The notes below the pieces were generated by a model. It worked only from the letters and a program-made list of their open reading frames with translations, had not been told where the DNA came from and searched no databases. Below, one piece after another: positions 14,337 to 22,536 of a stretch of 64,000 nucleotides of DNA (the first letter of the stretch is position 1; the number at the start of each line of letters is the position of its first letter). Source of the DNA: Microbacterium indicum DSM 19969. Its GTDB lineage: Bacteria; Actinomycetota; Actinomycetes; Actinomycetales; Microbacteriaceae. The translations under genes were made by a program, and so were the position numbers. Location: positions 310,001-374,000 of the forward strand of contig NZ_AULR01000001.1 in assembly GCF_000422385.1 (NCBI RefSeq). Direction: 5' to 3'.

Positions 14337-15878
14337 ATGACCGACCTGGCCACGAAGCCCGTCGACACCGCATCAGCGGGCGACTCGTCGCAGACCGTCG
14401 AATGGGCCCAGCCCGAACCGAAGAAGTCGCATAAGAAGCTCTGGCTCGGCATCGGCATCCCGGGCGGAGTCGTCGTGGCGGCGGCCGCTGCCGCCGGCGT
14501 CCTCTCGACCATGGTCATCGCCCCCGGCACCACGGTTCTCGGCGCCGACGTGGGCCTCTCCTTCCCCGGGTCGACGCACGACCGCATCTCCGAGGCACTC
14601 GCCTCCCTCCCCATCGACATCACGGTCGACGGCGAGACCGCCCAGCTCACGGGATCCGATCTCGGGCTCTCGGTCGACGCCTCGACCGCCGCGGCCGACG
14701 CCCTGAGCGAGCGCCCGGCGTGGAAGGTCGGCGAGTGGAACGGCGGCGACACCGGCGCCGATGTGACGGTCGACGAGGCCGCGGCGTCCGCGGCCCTCAG
14801 CGACGCGTTCGCCGACGCGTACACCGACCCCGTGAACGCGCAGATCCAGTACTCCGACGGCTCGTACCAGGCCGTCGCGGGCCAGTCGGGCCGCGGCGTC
14901 GACACGACCGCCCTCGCCGCCGACATCGAGCAGCAGCTCGCGGCATCGAACGGATCGCAGGCGCTCGCCTCCGGCACGCAGCTCCTCGCCGCCGCCGACA
15001 GCTCGTCCGGCATCACGATAGACACGAGCTTCGTCGAGATCCAGCCGCTCTTCACGACGAACGACGCCGAGGCCGAGGCGCAGCGCCTCAACGGCCTGCT
15101 CACGGGCGTCTCGTTCTCGCTCGACGGCGACGACGTCGACACCGCCCCCGCCGACACCGTCGCGTCGTGGCTCGACGTCACGGTCGGCGACGACGGCACG
15201 GTCAGCGTCGCGACCGACGACGCGGCGATCCAGTCGTACGTCGACGGCCTGCCGGCCAAGGTCGACCAGGATGCCACCGACGCCGACGTCATCGTCAACG
15301 CGGCGGGCGACGTCCTGAAGACCGAGACGGAGGGCCAGGACGGCTACAAGGTCTCCTCGACCGACGGCGTCGCCGACCAGGTCGCCGCGGCTCTCACGCA
15401 GGGCGAGTCGGCCGACATCGCGCTCACGGGCGAGGTCGTCGAGCACAAGACGACCGAGCGCTTCCGCCGCGCGTACGTCGACATCAGCGAGGGCATGTCG
15501 TACTTCTACGAGACGGTCAACGGCGGCGAGGAGAAGCTCGTCCGCACGATCCCCTCGGCGACCGGCACGGCCGGCCACGACACCCAGACGGGCAACTTCA
15601 CCGTGTACGCGCAGCTCACCTCGCAGAACATGGGCTCGTGCGACGCCGACGGCAACTACGACCCGACGCGCGGCGGCAAGGACTTCGGCTACTGCACCGC
15701 GAACGTGCCGTGGATCTCGTACTTCAACGGCGACCAGGGCTTCCACGGAACCTACTGGCACAACAACTTCGGCAACGGCGCGCGCATGAGCCACGGCTGC
15801 GTCAACCTGCCCGAGGCCGAGGCCCAGTGGACGTACTCGTTCCTCCAGGTCGGCACCCCCGTCCAGGTCGTCTCGTAA
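14337..15878 (+). CDS. L,D-transpeptidase (YkuD domain) with peptidoglycan-binding domain
   Basis: This 513-residue protein has a cytoplasmic tail of about 38 residues, one membrane anchor (about 39-62, IGIPGGVVVAAAAAAGVL), then tandem PG_binding_4-like regions (about 75-370). The catalytic YkuD domain is C-terminal (about 385-513). The catalytic signature is HGTYWHNNFGNG followed by MSHGCVNL, with Cys as nucleophile. It forms 3-3 cross-links in peptidoglycan or attaches proteins to it, outside the membrane. A GGGGAGAG ribosome-binding site precedes the ATG and a strong terminator follows the stop. It is probably transcribed alone. Confidence 0.94.
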   Translation: MTDLATKPVDTASAGDSSQTVEWAQPEPKKSHKKLWLGIGIPGGVVVAAAAAAGVLSTMVIAPGTTVLGADVGLSFPGSTHDRISEALASLPIDITVDGETAQLTGSDLGLSVDASTAAADALSERPAWKVGEWNGGDTGADVTVDEAAASAALSDAFADAYTDPVNAQIQYSDGSYQAVAGQSGRGVDTTALAADIEQQLAASNGSQALASGTQLLAAADSSSGITIDTSFVEIQPLFTTNDAEAEAQRLNGLLTGVSFSLDGDDVDTAPADTVASWLDVTVGDDGTVSVATDDAAIQSYVDGLPAKVDQDATDADVIVNAAGDVLKTETEGQDGYKVSSTDGVADQVAAALTQGESADIALTGEVVEHKTTERFRRAYVDISEGMSYFYETVNGGEEKLVRTIPSATGTAGHDTQTGNFTVYAQLTSQNMGSCDADGNYDPTRGGKDFGYCTANVPWISYFNGDQGFHGTYWHNNFGNGARMSHGCVNLPEAEAQWTYSFLQVGTPVQVVS

Positions 15879-15940: not shown

Positions 15941-16393
15941 ATGAGCGACCTCCACGCAGAACTGCTCTCGGCGGCCACGATCGTCGCCGCGAACTCGCTG
16001 ACCCTGAAGCCGGGCCAGGAGGACTTCGTCGCCCCGACGACCTACGCCGTGGCACTGTCGGTCGCCGACCCGCAGAAGACCTGGCAGCGCGTCGTCCTCG
16101 ACGGCGACGAGGTCGTCGCCTTCATCCAGGCGTACTTCGACGCCGACCAGCCGTCGGACTACCTGCGTGCGGCGCTGTGGCGCGTCAACGTCGACGCCGA
16201 CGCGCAGGGCCGCGGCGCGGGCCGCTACGCCGTCGAGGCGGTCCTCGAGGAGGCCCGCCGGCGTGGCCTCGAGCGCGTCACCGTGGTCTACGAGGCGGGC
16301 GACCTCGGCCCCGAGGCCTTCTTCCGCCGTGTCGGGTTCGCGCCCGTCGGTGAGAGCGAGTACGGCGAGGTGGTCGCCGAGATCCGCCTCTGA
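15941..16393 (+). CDS. GNAT-family N-acetyltransferase
   Basis: This 150-residue protein has the GNAT fold. The acetyl-CoA pyrophosphate loop is seen in DADAQGRGAGRYAVEAVLEEA (starting near residue 86), preceded by the beta-strand segment LRAALWRVNV. FFRRVGFAPVGES near residue 128 is the usual C-terminal motif. It would transfer an acetyl group from acetyl-CoA to an amine; the acceptor is not evident. It is close to proteins annotated as spermine/spermidine or ribosomal acetyltransferases only at the family level. The ATG at 15941 is preferred over the TTG two codons earlier because of the -10 spacing. Confidence 0.85.
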   Translation: MSDLHAELLSAATIVAANSLTLKPGQEDFVAPTTYAVALSVADPQKTWQRVVLDGDEVVAFIQAYFDADQPSDYLRAALWRVNVDADAQGRGAGRYAVEAVLEEARRRGLERVTVVYEAGDLGPEAFFRRVGFAPVGESEYGEVVAEIRL

Positions 16394-16570: not shown

Positions 16571-17089
16571 ATGTGGATCTCCGAGCGCCCCGTTCCCGAT
16601 GTCGAGGCCGAGCTCGACCAGGTGGCGTCCGCGATGGCCGACGCCGACAGCCGCGTCTACGTCGTCGCCGACGGCCGCTGGGTATCGGCCATCCAAGACT
16701 TCCCGCTGACCGCGGACAAGCCGTCGAGCGTATGGACCGCATGCTCGCTCCGCGACTCCCTCGCGGATTCGCCCCATCCGCTCGTGACGATCGCGGTGGG
16801 CGAGGAGGGTCAGCGCGACTCGCTCTGGGACCGTATCGGACGTGATCCGAACGGGCTGACGCGGGTGAGCACGAAGGCGGCCCTCCTCACGACGGACGGC
16901 GGCGTCCATCGAGCGACCTTCGCCACGAACGAAGCCGGCGACTCGGCCGTCGAGTTCAACGCAGACGGCGCCGTCGTCGTGGTCTGGACCGCACGACTGG
17001 ACCTCCTCCCCGACGAGCTCCCGCTCGCCGACGCCGCGGACCAGCTCCCCGCCATGATCGCCGCGTGGAGAAGCCTGGCTCGCGGCTGA
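16571..17089 (+). CDS. Hypothetical protein, 172 residues
   Basis: I do not recognise this protein. It begins MWISERPVPDVEAELDQVAS and is a soluble, acidic alpha/beta protein without signal peptide or membrane segment. Beta strands appear as RVYVVADGRW, LVTIAVG, AALLTT and AVVVVWTA. The Trp/Asp pattern resembles small immunity-type or SMI1-like proteins but no motif is decisive. Codon use is normal for the window. It lies between the GNAT gene and the lipoprotein operon, with its own promoter-like element, so it may or may not belong with the export cluster that follows. Confidence 0.65.
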   Translation: MWISERPVPDVEAELDQVASAMADADSRVYVVADGRWVSAIQDFPLTADKPSSVWTACSLRDSLADSPHPLVTIAVGEEGQRDSLWDRIGRDPNGLTRVSTKAALLTTDGGVHRATFATNEAGDSAVEFNADGAVVVVWTARLDLLPDELPLADAADQLPAMIAAWRSLARG

Positions 17090-17206
17090 CCCCGTGTCGA
17101 CGCGCCCCGTCTGACGCCCCGGCGGCTCCCCGGGACGTGAGAAGCAACGGCGCGAACGCGGACGGGCGGGGGCGCCGCCATCGCCGATGGTCATCCGGCA
17201 TCGCAG

Positions 17207-17212
17207 TATCGT
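17207..17212 (+). promoter_or_regulatory. Putative -10 element of the lipoprotein-ABC operon
   Basis: TATCGT ends seven bases before the ATG at 17220. This spacing repeats what is seen at several other genes here and favours 17220 as the start of the lipoprotein. Confidence 0.35.
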
Positions 17213-17219
17213 TCTGGTG

Positions 17220-17882
17220 ATGAGCCAACTAATTGTCATGCCCACGTCCGGGGGCCGGACGTGGCGCGTCGCGGGGGGGGTAGCGTGCGCCGGGGTTCTG
17301 GCGGTCTCCGCGTTCGCGCTCGTCGCCTGCTCCGCTCCTGAGGCGGAGGGCGGCCACGCGACCGCCGGCGATGTGAGCTTCACGGGGCCGTACGCACAGC
17401 GGTTCGCGGACGAGTACGACGCCGACCGCACCTCCGACCTCGCGCGGCAGATCCTCGCGACGGGCGAGATCACCGATGCCGACGTCGCGGAAGTCCGCAC
17501 CCGGTTCGCCGACTGCCTCGAGTCAGAGGGCATCACGTTGGACGCGCTCGACGGCAACACCATGAACTACACCGTGACGGTCGATGACTCGAACGACGCG
17601 GCCGAGGGCCACGTCACCGATTGCGAGTATTCGTCGGGCCTGCAGCCGGTGTACTACCTCGACCTCGAGATGCGGGGGAACCCGGAGCACCGGGATCTGG
17701 CCGAGGTCATGACCGAATGCTTCATCGACAAGGGTGTCGTCCCGTCGGATTACACGGTCGCCGACTACGAACGCGACAACGCCGACTACACGTTCCCCTT
17801 CGCGGGCACCGTCGAAGGCGACGTGGTCTACAGCGAGTGTCTCGATGACCCGCTCGGGCTGATCGCTCAGGCCGGCGAGTGA
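17220..17882 (+). CDS. Lipoprotein with four acid-Cys motifs, first gene of an ABC export-type operon
   Basis: This is a lipoprotein of about 220 residues. The signal peptide ends in the lipobox ALVAC, so the mature protein starts SAPEAEGG after the lipidated Cys. The mature part carries four further cysteines, each preceded by an acidic residue (DCLES, DCEYS, ECFID, ECLDD), which probably form two disulfides outside the cell. I recognise no domain. The stop overlaps the next start by four bases (GTGA), tying it to the adaptor, ATPase and permease. It may be the substrate-recognition or sensing part of that machine. Starts at 17187 and 17238 are also open. Confidence 0.75.
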   Translation: MSQLIVMPTSGGRTWRVAGGVACAGVLAVSAFALVACSAPEAEGGHATAGDVSFTGPYAQRFADEYDADRTSDLARQILATGEITDADVAEVRTRFADCLESEGITLDALDGNTMNYTVTVDDSNDAAEGHVTDCEYSSGLQPVYYLDLEMRGNPEHRDLAEVMTECFIDKGVVPSDYTVADYERDNADYTFPFAGTVEGDVVYSECLDDPLGLIAQAGE

Positions 17883-18973
17883 GCGGCGGTCGACGCGCGG
17901 CGACGGTGATCACGGCGAGCCTCGTCGCCGTCGGGCTCGTGTGCGCGGGAGCGGCGGCGGCGCTGTTGCTGCGCCCCGCGGTTCCGGCGTCACTCGCCGG
18001 CGACGCCGCGGCGACGACCGCGCCGGCCGCGCAGCGCGAGTTCGCGGACGAGCAGGCGGTCGACGTCCGTCTGACGATGGCCGACTCCGCGTCGATCGTC
18101 GCCCCGAGGGACGGCCGCGTCACGGCGCTGCAGTGCGCGCCGGGCGCCGAGGCGCACTCCGGCGACACCATGGTCTCGGTCGACGGGCGTCCGCTGCTGA
18201 GCCTCGCGACCAGCACGCCGCTGTGGCGCGACCTCCGGATCGGCGACACGGGTGCGGACGTCACCGCGCTCCAGGAGACGCTGACTGCCGACGGGTACGC
18301 CACGGCGGCGGACGGCGTCGTCGGGTCGAGCACGGCGGACGCGGTCCGGTCGGCGTTCCGCGCGATCGGCGTCACGGGTCCGTCGGGTCAGCCCGAGGAA
18401 CAGGCCGGAGACGAGGACGAGGCCGCCCAGCAGGCGGTCGTCCTCGCCGTCGCCGACGTGGTGTGGCTGCCGGCGCCGAGCCTCGTGCTGCAGGAGTGCG
18501 CCACGGTGGTCGGCGGCCAGATGGCCGCAGGAGACGTCCTCGCGACCTCGCCGGACGTCGTCACGGGGGTGCGGATCACGGGGCAGGACTCGAGCGCGCT
18601 GCCCGGCGATCGGGTCGTCGCGGTCGGCGACGTCGCCGGTGCGCTGACGGCGGATCAGACGATCGTCGATCCCGAGTTCCTGCGCGACATCGTCACGACC
18701 CCCGAGTTCTCGGAGGCGGCACCGCAGGATCACGAGGTGGTGCTGCCCGGCACGAGCTCGCTCACCGCGCCGGTCGCCGTTCTGGCTGTTCCGGCGAGCG
18801 CCGTCTTCGGTCTCGCGGGTACCGCGGGGTGCATCTCGATCGACGGCTCCCCCGTCCCCGTCGACGTCGCGGGCTCCGAGCTGGGCCAGACCCTGGTCGC
18901 GCCGCGGGAGCCGCTCGACGGCGTCTCCCAGGTCGACGCGAAGCCGGAGGCCGATGCGTCATGCGCATCGTGA
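17879..18973 (+). CDS. Periplasmic adaptor-type protein with peptidoglycan-binding insert
   Basis: This 364-residue protein has an N-terminal membrane anchor (about residues 8-32) and an extracytoplasmic part. SIVAPRDGRVTALQCAPGAEAHSG near residue 60 looks like the lipoyl/barrel-sandwich half-motif of membrane fusion proteins. A PG_binding_1 domain follows, with RIGDTGADVTALQETLTADGY near residue 120 and DGVVGSSTADAVRSAF. An acidic segment (EEQAGDEDEAA) and more beta-rich barrel follow. Adaptors of this build are found with MacB-like ABC transporters in Actinobacteria, where the insert could anchor the pump to the wall. Start GTG overlaps the lipoprotein stop and its 3' end overlaps the ATPase gene by 13 bases. 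Confidence 0.8.
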   Translation: MSGGRRAATVITASLVAVGLVCAGAAAALLLRPAVPASLAGDAAATTAPAAQREFADEQAVDVRLTMADSASIVAPRDGRVTALQCAPGAEAHSGDTMVSVDGRPLLSLATSTPLWRDLRIGDTGADVTALQETLTADGYATAADGVVGSSTADAVRSAFRAIGVTGPSGQPEEQAGDEDEAAQQAVVLAVADVVWLPAPSLVLQECATVVGGQMAAGDVLATSPDVVTGVRITGQDSSALPGDRVVAVGDVAGALTADQTIVDPEFLRDIVTTPEFSEAAPQDHEVVLPGTSSLTAPVAVLAVPASAVFGLAGTAGCISIDGSPVPVDVAGSELGQTLVAPREPLDGVSQVDAKPEADASCAS

Positions 18974-19578
18974 TGGGCGCGGTCGGCCACAGATTCGATT
19001 CCGGCGGCTGGCTGTTCCGCGGTGTCGACCTCGCGTTCGACGCCGGTCGCTCCTACGCGCTCACCGGGCCGTCCGGATCGGGCAAGAGCACGCTGCTGGG
19101 GATCATCGCGGGGTGGATCGCGCCCGTCGAGGGGAGCGTGGATCGCGGGGACGTCGCCCGCTCGGCTCGGGTGTTCCAGAACCCCCACGGCACGCCGCGC
19201 CGCTCCGCGCGCGACCACGTCGCGCTTCCGTTGCTCGCGCGCGGCGCGTCGCCGAGAGAGGCCGACGAGCAGGCGGACGGCTGGCTCGAGCGCTTCGGCC
19301 TCGGCGCTCTCGGCGGCCGGCGATTCCGCGACCTGTCGGGTGGCGAGGCGCAGAGGCTCATGCTCGCGCGGGCAGCGGCCACCTCGCCCGACCTGCTGCT
19401 CGTCGACGAGCCGACGGCGCAGCTCGATCCGTCGGCCGCCGACGGCGTCAACCTCGCGCTGAACAGCCTGAGGCTCGAGCACACGATCGTCGTCGTGGCG
19501 ACGCACGACGATCGCACGCGCGACGCGTGCACGGACCACGTCGATCTCCGTGCGTTCGCACCGGAGGCGGTCGCGTGA
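18961..19578 (+). CDS. ABC transporter ATP-binding protein (MacB/LolD type)
   Basis: This 205-residue ATPase has Walker A GPSGSGKSTLLGIIAG (about residues 36-51), signature DLSGGEAQRLMLARA, Walker B DLLLVDEPTAQLD and a His switch in VVATHDD. The Q-loop region (VFQNPHGTPRRS) is present. It is shorter than most family members because the middle helical region is compact. Start ATG lies within the end of the adaptor gene, and its stop overlaps the permease start by four bases. It would power the adjacent permease. Confidence 0.92.
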   Translation: MRIVMGAVGHRFDSGGWLFRGVDLAFDAGRSYALTGPSGSGKSTLLGIIAGWIAPVEGSVDRGDVARSARVFQNPHGTPRRSARDHVALPLLARGASPREADEQADGWLERFGLGALGGRRFRDLSGGEAQRLMLARAAATSPDLLLVDEPTAQLDPSAADGVNLALNSLRLEHTIVVVATHDDRTRDACTDHVDLRAFAPEAVA

Positions 19579-20636
19579 GACTCGCCGCGATCGCGCGCGA
19601 GGCGTGGCGCAACGTCCGCTCCGGCACGGCCCGGACCGTGACGATCGTGTGCGCGCTCATCCTCATCGTGGGCGGTCTGGTCGCGGCCGATCTCGCGTCG
19701 ATCCGGTCGATCCAGTCCGAAGCGCGGGCGTTCCAGACGTCGGGCGCTTCCGTGCTCATCTTCTCTGCTCCCGGGCAGATCGATGGTGCGATGTGCGCCG
19801 CGCTCGCGGGGACGGGATCGGTCCGCACCTCGGGCGCGCTTCGCGAGAACGAGACGATCGAGATGGCCGCTCTCCCCGACAGCGCGGTTCCGGCGTACGA
19901 GGTGACGGGCGGGGTTGCGACGATCCTGGGCGCCGCGGCGGACTCGAGCGGGCTCGTCATATCCGACCAGCTCGCGTCGATGCTGGGCGCTCGGCCCGGG
20001 GACGACGTCGAGACGGCCGCGGGTCCCGTGCGCGTCGCGAGCGAGTACGCGTACCCCTCGGACGGGAGGAGGTCCGGCTTCGGGTACGCGGCGCTCGCGC
20101 CCGTCCTCCCCCGGGGCGCCTTCGACGAGTGCTGGGCGGAGGCATGGCCGACGTCCGAGAGCACGGCCGCGCTTCTGCACGACACCCTGCTCGCCTCGGG
20201 CGATGCCGGATCGGGGACGTACTCGCAGCTCAACGCCACGCACGGCTCGGCCTTCGACGGGGTCGCGCGGTTCCGAGCCCGGCTGACGGCGCCGGCCCCG
20301 GCGGCAGCGGCCCTGCTCGGCGCGGCACTCGGGTGGATCGTCGTGCGCGCGCGCCGCCTGTCGCACGCCTCGGCGCTGCACGCAGGGGTTCGGCACCGAG
20401 ACCTCGTGTCGATCTGGGCGATCGAGATCGGGATCGCCGTGCCCGCGGTCATCGTGGCGGCGTCGCTCATCACGGCGGGGTTCGTCGTGCGCGCGCCGGC
20501 GGAGGACGCCGGGTCCCTGATCGCGGCGGCCGCGGCGATCGCGGGCGGGGCCGTTTCCGGCGTCATCGCGGGAGGGCTCGCGGCGTACGCGTCGATCCGC
20601 GAGCGGCACCTGTTCCGCTACTTCGCCGACCGATGA
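19575..20636 (+). CDS. ABC transporter permease, FtsX/MacB-like topology
   Basis: This 353-residue protein has one N-terminal membrane segment (about residues 19-40), a large extracytoplasmic domain (about 45-235) and three C-terminal segments (about 238-260, 278-305 and 315-340). This is the topology of MacB/FtsX-type mechanotransmission permeases, which do not pass substrate through the membrane but move the extracellular domain. The external domain has two cysteines (GAMCAALAG, FDECWAEAW). It is the last gene of the operon. The sequence around residue 90-160 is too divergent to name the family. Confidence 0.8.
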   Translation: MRLAAIAREAWRNVRSGTARTVTIVCALILIVGGLVAADLASIRSIQSEARAFQTSGASVLIFSAPGQIDGAMCAALAGTGSVRTSGALRENETIEMAALPDSAVPAYEVTGGVATILGAAADSSGLVISDQLASMLGARPGDDVETAAGPVRVASEYAYPSDGRRSGFGYAALAPVLPRGAFDECWAEAWPTSESTAALLHDTLLASGDAGSGTYSQLNATHGSAFDGVARFRARLTAPAPAAAALLGAALGWIVVRARRLSHASALHAGVRHRDLVSIWAIEIGIAVPAVIVAASLITAGFVVRAPAEDAGSLIAAAAAIAGGAVSGVIAGGLAAYASIRERHLFRYFADR

Positions 20637-20721: not shown

Positions 20722-22536
20722 TCAGACGAGCGACTCCCGCCACGCCCTGTGCAGCTTCGCGAACGTCCCCGTCCCCGCGATGAGGGTCTCGGGCGCGTCG
20801 TCCTCGATCACGCGCCCGTGCTCCATGACGAGAACGCGGTCGGCGATCTCGACCGTCGAGAGGCGGTGGGCGATGATGATCGCGGTGCGGTCGGCCAGCA
20901 GGGTCTGCAGGGCGCGCTGGATCATCTGCTCCGACGGGATGTCGAGCGACGCCGTCGCCTCGTCGAGGATCAGCACCGCGGGATCCGCGAGGAACGCGCG
21001 CGCGAACGACACGAGCTGGCGCTGACCCGCCGAGACGCGGCCGCCGCGCTTGTTGACGTCGGTGTCGTACCCGTCCGGCAGCGACATGATGAACTCGTGC
21101 GCGCCGACGGCCTTCGCGGCGCCCTCGATCTCGTCGAACGACGCGCCGGGGCGCCCGAGGGCGATGTTGTCGGCGACCGTCCCGCTGAAGAGGTATGCCT
21201 CCTGCGTGACCATGACGATCGCGCGGCGCAGGTCCTGCTGGCTGAGGTCGCGCAGGTCGATCTCGTCGAGCGTGACGGATCCCTCGCTCGGGTCGTAGAA
21301 CCGCGAGACGAGCTTCGCGAGCGTCGACTTGCCCGCGCCCGTCGTGCCGACGACCGCGACGGTCTGACCCTCGGGGATGTCGAGCGAGAACTCAGGCAGG
21401 ATCGTGCGCCCGGCGCCGTACCCGAAGGTCACGTCGTCGAAGCGCAGGTGCCCGTGCGCCTCGGGGAGGGCCGTCGGGGACTCGGGGTCGGGGACCGAGG
21501 GCTCCTCCTCGAGCACGCCCGACACCTTCTCGAGCGCGGCCGACGCGGCCTGGAACGAGTTGATGAAGGTCGCGACCTCCTGCAGGGGCGTGAAGAAGTT
21601 GCGCACGTAGAGCACGGCCGACAGCAGCGCGCCGACGGTGAACTCGCCCCACGTGATCCGCACGCCGCCCCACAACACGACGATGCCCGTCGCGAACGCC
21701 GAGATCGCCATGAGGCCGGGCTCGAAGGTTCCGAAGAGGCGGATGACGCGCATGTTCGCCTCGCGGTACTTCTCGGACAGGCCCGCGAAGATCCGCTCGT
21801 TCCCGGGCTCGGCGCGGAACGCCTTGCCCGCGCGGATCCCCGTCATCGTCTCGACGAACTTGACGATGACCTGCGCGCTCCACACGCGCGTCTCGCGGTA
21901 GCGCACCTGCGACCGGCGGTAGAACCAGCGCATGAGGAGGCCGAGCGGCACGACGGCGACGACGATCACGAGACCCGACTGCCAGTCGACGAGCACGAGC
22001 GCGATGAAGGTGAAGACGCCGTAGAGCACGCCGTTGACGAGCTGCGTGAGGCCGCCGTTGAGCAGCTCGCGGATCGTCTCGAGGTCGCTCGTCTGGCGCG
22101 AGATGATGCGGCCGGAGGTGTAGGTCTCGTGGAACTCGAGGCTCAGCCGCTGCGTGTGGTGGAACACCCGCGTGCGCAGGTCGAGCAGCACGGCCTGCGT
22201 CAGGTGCGCCGCGAGGGTGTCGTACCAGGCGAGGAGCGCGGCGCCCAGGATCGCCGTCGCCGCGTAGGCCGTGACGACGCCCCAGGTGGGCCCCCAGTCG
22301 CCCTCCCCCGTCACGGCGGGGAGCGCCGTGTTGAGCCCGATGCCGAGGAGCGCCGGGCCGAGGACGCGGACGCCCGTCTGGACGACCACGACGATCGACA
22401 CGAGGAGGACGCGCCACTTCATGGGCGCGAGGAGCGACAGGAGGAGGCGCTGCGAGCGCTCACGGATGACGCGGCTCTCGTCCTTCGTGTAGTCGGTGCG
22501 GTCCTCGCCCGCTGTTCCCTGGACGGTCCCGCTCAT
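20722..22536 (-). CDS. Heterodimeric ABC exporter, subunit with canonical Walker B
   Basis: This 604-residue protein is a full half-transporter: six transmembrane helices (about residues 35-330) and a nucleotide-binding domain (about 365-600). Walker A is [12 protein letters not shown], Walker [13 protein letters not shown] with the catalytic Glu, and the His switch is in [10 protein letters not shown]. The signature is VSAGQRQL, a departure from LSGGQ. Its ATG overlaps the stop of the other subunit gene (ATGA). Together they form an asymmetric multidrug- or lipid-type exporter. I start it at ATG 22536 ([16 protein letters not shown]). No substrate is implied by the context. Confidence 0.93.

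Follow-up and report, generated by a model that had tools for sequence, protein, structure and literature searches.

What is the function of a compact cassette of four genes in Microbacterium indicum DSM 19969, which encodes a lipoprotein of no named family, an adaptor, and the ATPase and permease of an ABC (ATP-binding cassette) system? The cassette lies at positions 17220-20636 of a 64,000-nucleotide stretch of this genome (contig NZ_AULR01000001.1, positions 310,001 to 374,000), which is referred to here, in its full length, as the window. Based on comparison with related cassettes in other genomes, it is probably an orphan bacteriocin-immunity (resistance) cassette, viz. a NisI-like immunity lipoprotein combined with a MacB-type detoxifier that has a wall-binding adaptor.

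The first question is what accompanies these genes elsewhere. The analysis profiled 51 cassettes (the window included) containing both an adaptor and a permease of the window's family, and the full order lipoprotein-adaptor-ATPase-permease is present in 45 of them, the exceptions lacking either an upstream lipoprotein (L083, L222, L228, L230 and L232) or a recognisable ATPase (L225); a lipoprotein is found in 49 of the 51. The lipoprotein gene is preceded, in the same orientation and mostly at a distance of less than 150 bases, by one that encodes a small protein carrying a Sec signal, as called by a crude in-house rule. Proteins of this kind, which are presumably toxins, adjoin the lipoprotein in 43 of the 51 cassettes, where 24 are lactococcin-972 proteins (PF09683), 16 belong to a group with two cysteines (Cys), referred to as two-Cys, and 3 to a group referred to as type D. 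The toxin-lipoprotein pair is located downstream of the permease in L228, L230 and L232. The toxin calls for L084, the first lipoprotein of L224 and the second lipoproteins of L244 and L258 were rejected by hand, and that for the third lipoprotein of L224 was added by hand. No toxin was found in the remaining eight cassettes, viz. the window, L075, L076, L084, L222, L227, L083 and L250, where the call for L250 is based on about 0.4 kb of upstream contig; in L083, the permease is truncated by the end of the contig, beyond which a pair may also be present, as it is located downstream in the nearest relatives L228, L230 and L232.

The presumed toxins are of more than one kind. PF09683 matches all 23 sequences of the lactococcin group at an E-value of 0.01 (the 24 minus one of two that are identical), and this group also matches the solved structures of lactococcin 972 (2LGN) and 9HKJ. 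No Pfam family was matched at the same threshold by any of 17 two-Cys sequences (including one from an extra pair in L073) or of four type D sequences (including one from L088). The two-Cys group is loose, as it was formed by single linkage and its members share two invariant Cys at low identity. The NCBIfam model JUQZ-1 was considered for these proteins and rejected, since it matches 2 of the 17 members and scores 18 versus 40 bits in the one detailed, over a stretch that includes the signal peptide. Several systems with different toxin types can be present in one genome, as in G121, which carries L073, L084, L085 and L088; in L084, the C-terminal half of the ATPase alone is recognisable. Among distant cassettes of the family, L257, L258 and L259 have other secreted-type proteins beside weakly matching lipoproteins. 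In another family of the phylum, the locus L260:6144-12921 contains, near a distant ABC cassette, three pairs of a secreted-type protein of about 130 amino acids and a weakly matching lipoprotein, as well as one further lipoprotein-like match, and it is possibly an amplified toxin-immunity array.

Is the lipoprotein then linked to the toxin or to the transporter? Single-sequence searches of 149 genomes of the genus (own genome included) detected the lipoprotein in 16 of them; the permease occurs in 15 and the adaptor in 49. The lipoprotein co-occurs with the permease, which the preliminary description of this locus, made from the sequence alone, had proposed as a check: 12 genomes have both, 4 the lipoprotein only (in three of which the match lies solely within residues 6-80), 3 the permease only and 130 neither (Fisher 5e-12). 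In the same sample, all five places scoring over the PF09683 cut-off lie directly upstream of this lipoprotein, and in 329 genomes of the family 19 of the 42 such places are followed, at 1.7-2.9 kb, by a permease of the window's family. Of the PF09683 loci in the family, 30 were examined; 13 are beside the cassette, all with the lipoprotein, 3 (L272, L274 and L281) have the lipoprotein but, over the 0.9 kb or so visible past it, not the adaptor, and 14 lack a nearby lipoprotein. In L088 a toxin-lipoprotein pair likewise has no adjoining adaptor, and in L073 a further pair is located on the strand opposite to the transporter. In trees of the same cassettes, which are quick ones with many open forks, the toxin type changes among the labelled rows 3 times for the lipoprotein (minimum 2), 5 times for the permease and 8 times for the adaptor.

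One pair of operons, from two genomes of the same genus (L228 and L230), displays a co-divergence of toxin and lipoprotein. Their adaptors are 99% identical, the ATPases 95%, the permeases 86% and the toxin signals 95%, while the identity is 43% for the mature toxins and 59% for the lipoproteins. At the DNA level, the region of the mature toxin and of the lipoprotein's N-terminal half (L228:9800-10377) shows 43-59% identity, after which the value climbs to 70-88% and, further along, dips again to 61%. Such a pattern would be expected of a toxin-immunity pair that has been swapped or is diversifying, and in this one operon pair it suggests that the N-terminal half of the lipoprotein recognises the toxin. 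Due to the pairs lacking an adjoining adaptor, the best fit of the lipoprotein tree to toxin type, and the divergence between L228 and L230, the lipoprotein seems to be tied to the toxin.

These observations also bear upon an alternative explanation, according to which the ABC cassette is a machine for export or wall passage, carrying the Sec-translocated toxin or another protein through the thick wall with the lipoprotein serving as its chaperone. MacB-type systems can export proteins, and both the order toxin-lipoprotein-adaptor-ATPase-permease in most copies and the wall-binding insert in the adaptor are consistent with such a role. However, toxin-lipoprotein pairs occur where this adaptor does not adjoin them, and there are cassettes lacking a toxin, two of them with a regulator alongside. 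Further, according to a passage in PMC11796350, lactococcin-972 proteins are thought to leave the cell via Sec rather than via a system dedicated to them. Export is thus an unlikely explanation. The preliminary description had considered that the set might fall within a characterised family such as that of a lactococcin-972-type bacteriocin exporter; in view of the genus and family counts given above, it does belong with such loci, but the designation "exporter" is less likely than "immunity", because of the Sec-type signals and the toxin-lipoprotein pairs without an adjoining adaptor.

If the cassette provides immunity, its working can be envisaged as follows. In the relatives, the same genes sit behind the gene of a small Sec-secreted, presumably antibacterial protein, of the lactococcin-972 or another type. 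The lipoprotein, on the outer face of the membrane, would intercept this toxin on the way to its target by binding it, in the manner of NisI and nisin; for lactococcin 972 the target is lipid II, according to PMC11796350 and PMC9964109. The MacB-type ATPase-permease pair, with an adaptor touching the peptidoglycan, would expel outwards toxin that is bound or is near the membrane, so that the lipoprotein would provide the specificity and the transporter would be a more general pump. For producers of lactococcin-972-type proteins, the dedicated lipoprotein is a concrete candidate for the protector. A broader interpretation, which we favour slightly on balance, is that the cassette forms a common chassis for a large actinobacterial class of Sec-secreted bacteriocins, most of it still unnamed. 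Its toxin slot would be occupied by lactococcin-972 or by at least two unnamed types, each with a lipoprotein of one diverse family; the wall-anchored ABC machine would be generic, and the window would hold a stripped resistance copy. If this holds true, the lipoprotein can be used as a bait for unknown bacteriocins, and its use in this manner has turned up small secreted proteins of no known family that are likely bacteriocins.

In the window itself, the partner is missing. Profiles of the three toxin groups found nothing in its six frames (best E-value 0.21), and PF09683 had no match at an E-value of 10 in the whole of its own genome, the type D profile having been applied to the window but not to the rest of this genome. 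As a toxin gene is absent from the window, its cassette may confer resistance to the toxins of neighbours or may serve an unlinked toxin. The permease of the window is nearest in the tree to those of the lactococcin-972-associated L073 and L074; the position of the lipoprotein is unstable between trees. Different states of the cassette are seen in a series from another genus, where L226 has the toxin and the lipoprotein, L227 the lipoprotein only and L222 neither, and the genomes of L227 and L222 hold a lactococcin-972/lipoprotein pair elsewhere, so that a cassette without its own toxin gene could also function together with a pair located elsewhere. Elsewhere in the window's own genome (contig 16, L262:943-1272), an ORF (open reading frame) for a Cys-containing secreted-type protein of 109 amino acids, with no Pfam family, lies downstream of a likely transposase fragment.

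The existence of copies without a toxin, such as the window, L075 and L076, is also what would be expected if the cassette were a BceAB-like module for envelope stress or detoxification of antimicrobial peptides, of which bacteriocin operons are one user and for which the window copy has a non-bacteriocin substrate of its own. In accordance with this, L075 and L076 are flanked by an OmpR-type response regulator, and a response regulator and a histidine kinase are found upstream of L083; the regulator neighbourhoods of these three loci resemble peptide-resistance modules. However, a toxin gene accompanies 43 of the 51 copies, none of the four scanned neighbours in the window (ORFs 14337-15878, 15941-16393, 16571-17089 and 20722-22536) is a two-component protein by Pfam, and the nearest permeases are the toxin-associated ones of L073 and L074. 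This explanation is even less likely than export. The suggestion in the preliminary description of a wholly new export or signalling machine is rejected, because a toxin gene is present in most relatives. The part that seems to be undescribed is smaller, viz. the family of immunity lipoproteins and the unnamed toxins that it accompanies.

Besides the openness of the trees, several observations weigh against the interpretation of the window cassette as an orphan immunity cassette. First, no more than 19 of the 42 PF09683 places in the family lie upstream of a permease matched by the permease profile, and 14 of the 30 loci examined lack a lipoprotein of the family over a distance of about 1.5 kb. 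Among six downstream proteins from these 14 loci, three match TIGR01654 at an E-value of 4e-8 or better and one at 0.009, with all of the matches below the curated cut-off and the proteins cut by the locus end. As some PF09683 loci thus carry a TIGR01654-like membrane protein instead of the lipoprotein, this toxin family has at least two kinds of presumed immunity, of which the lipoprotein cassette is one. Second, a comparison of 11 pairs shows lower conservation of the mature toxin than of the adaptor in 4 of them (L228/L230, L228/L232, slightly in L233/L235, and L233/L253), equal conservation in 1 and higher conservation in 6, and the difference is striking in L228/L230 alone. Third, a Sec-like ORF called by nearly the same rule precedes 109 of 497 other genes versus 54 of 72 lipoprotein matches, in a background count that skipped two loci and used an anchor offset by 40 bases from that of the lipoprotein count. 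Due to this, single upstream ORFs of this kind are weak evidence, and the evidence for a toxin slot is the recurrence of related proteins rather than single cases. Fourth, the two-Cys group may comprise several families, because single linkage was applied to sequences still holding part of the signal. Fifth, the window's own genome contains a weak, unlinked two-Cys candidate toxin (E-value 0.097). Lastly, a passage of PMC11796350 states that for no lactococcin-972 locus had the B and C genes been verified experimentally.

The features of the four products are in agreement with the preliminary description in most respects (Table 1). All four consecutive ORFs are open, with overlaps of 4, 13 and 4 bases as it had reported, and an in-frame ATG at 17187 provides an alternative start for the lipoprotein. 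The four acid-Cys motifs noted earlier are present (ADC, TDC, TEC and SEC), and the lipobox Cys as well as four later Cys are invariant in all 13 aligned lipoproteins of the genus. In Pfam and NCBIfam, the window lipoprotein has sub-cut-off matches only, consistent with the earlier view that it holds no known domain, and no credible match was obtained for its family with 13 members scanned. PycTM and Emfourin of Pfam are far below cut-off (PycTM being seen in 1 of the 13 members), and the NCBIfam matches were rejected as weak. The family profile gave a best E-value of 0.2 against solved structures, and prediction of the structure from the single sequence gave a mean predicted local distance difference test score (pLDDT) of 42.8. 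The PG_binding_1 insert proposed for the adaptor scores just below the Pfam cut-off; the profile of the adaptor family matches solved peptidoglycan-binding domains in this region (5NM7, E-value 3.7e-6), which upholds the proposal. The assignment of the ATPase is confirmed by PF00005 (E-value 7e-26), and TIGR03608 (L_ocin_972_ABC) is its third-best NCBIfam model, with 99.1 bits falling short of the curated cut-off of 254.85. For the permease, nothing was found in Pfam and NCBIfam up to an E-value of 1, FtsX and DUF1430/TIGR01654 included. Its hydropathy agrees with the one N-terminal and three C-terminal helices described before, with one borderline segment at residues 60-78; as this is the usual layout of MacB-type ABC proteins, it is not odd in itself. 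The C-terminal helices show a weak profile match to MacB (5GKO, E-value 0.014), and the extracytoplasmic domain holds conserved DGR and CW motifs. The earlier MacB-like reading with a wall-binding adaptor insert thus still holds.

Table 1. Features of the cassette and of the gap preceding it, in window positions
Feature	Position	Strand	Basis
Lipoprotein, 220 amino acids, candidate bacteriocin-immunity lipoprotein, unnamed family	17220..17882	+	ORF, lipobox, relatives
Lipobox LVAC, lipidated Cys at residue 37	17319..17330	+	Cys invariant in 13/13
Membrane-anchored adaptor, 364 amino acids, GTG start	17879..18973	+	ORF, family profile
PG_binding_1-like insert, adaptor residues 124-158	18248..18352	+	Pfam, 22.6 bits (cut-off 23)
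ABC ATPase, 205 amino acids, family signature DEPTAQLD	18961..19578	+	Pfam, NCBIfam, alignment
MacB-like permease, 353 amino acids, GTG start, 1 + 3 helices	19575..20636	+	Hydropathy, alignment
130-base gap without toxin gene; relatives hold a toxin gene of about 300 bases there	17090..17219	+	Profiles, comparison

A few genes upstream of the cassette, the window ORF at 14337-15878 encodes an L,D-transpeptidase with PG_binding_4 domains. Beyond the genus, the permease profile was matched in 38 of the 329 genomes of the family, which represent 23 of 85 genera (four of the 38 at an E-value of 6e-10 or weaker), and in 7 of 396 genomes of the phylum (three weakly), own genome included in both. The 51 cassettes were delimited within what was retrieved: L254-L256, where the adaptor was not seen in the stretch, and L105 and L257-L261, which are outside the family or distant, were excluded; L089 and L090 from the genus, with weak or contig-end permease matches, are outside the profiled set, and L088 was profiled for lipoproteins only. 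The neighbourhoods of weak or partial permease matches in the family (G602, G731, G755, G651, G585:C3 and G697:C20) were left out, and 80 loci from a contig scan with the ATPase alignment (L111-L190), whose patterns were unspecific, were unused. A scan of viral contigs with the permease gave nothing useful. Plasmid carriage was rejected, as two permeases had no plasmid match at an E-value of 1e-3, and the ATPase had two matches of below 42% identity at 1e-20. An insertion-site test was dropped as unusable, because the gene next to the cassette on its upstream side is rare in its own right, occurring in 3 of 149 genomes, the window's own among them.

How does the cassette compare with known systems? 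Its locus type is already known in outline, and what appears to be new is the putative role of the lipoprotein, the additional groups of toxins and the orphan state, none of which was found in the open-access literature searched (most subscription journals lie outside it). In the lactococcin-972-type loci (lcn972, the pneumococcal scbABC and mediterrocin), a secreted toxin gene is likewise followed by putative immunity and ABC genes, and the same toxin family is present in 24 of the 51 cassettes, whereas the window has no PF09683 gene. These loci often use a seven-transmembrane DUF1430 protein and an ATPase, and in the mediterrocin locus the former is the presumed immunity factor (both from parts of PMC12345188); the cassettes described here contain instead a lipoprotein, an insert-bearing adaptor, an ATPase and, in the window, a short permease of 353 amino acids. 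In the portion consulted, PMC12328743 mentions the family in passing. The Pep1 cluster of Curtobacterium sp. APC 4022 consists of a core peptide, two hypothetical genes and two ABC genes (PMC10456417, in part); it is probably the same operon type, likened by the descriptions of its genes and not by their sequences. The lactococcin-972 operons of Brevibacterium comprise a core peptide, two membrane proteins and an ATPase (PMC5719810, in part). In the relevant passages of these two papers, the hypothetical genes are unanalysed, and a lipoprotein, an adaptor or an orphan cassette is not mentioned.

If the proposed mechanism is right, the closest functional likeness is to NisI with NisFEG and SpaI with SpaFEG, which similarly combine a specific surface lipoprotein with an ABC expeller (PMC8538875, in part). 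However, no sequence relation of NisI or SpaI to the window lipoprotein family was seen in the family scans. NisFEG is not known to have an adaptor or a MacB-type permease. The window cassette resembles MacAB in these respects, viz. in its adaptor, its 1 + 3 helices and the weak C-terminal match to MacB noted above. To our knowledge, no outer-membrane channel is expected in this lineage. The cassette differs from MacAB in that its ATPase and permease are encoded by separate genes, its permease has no FtsX match in Pfam, and its adaptor holds a peptidoglycan-binding insert.

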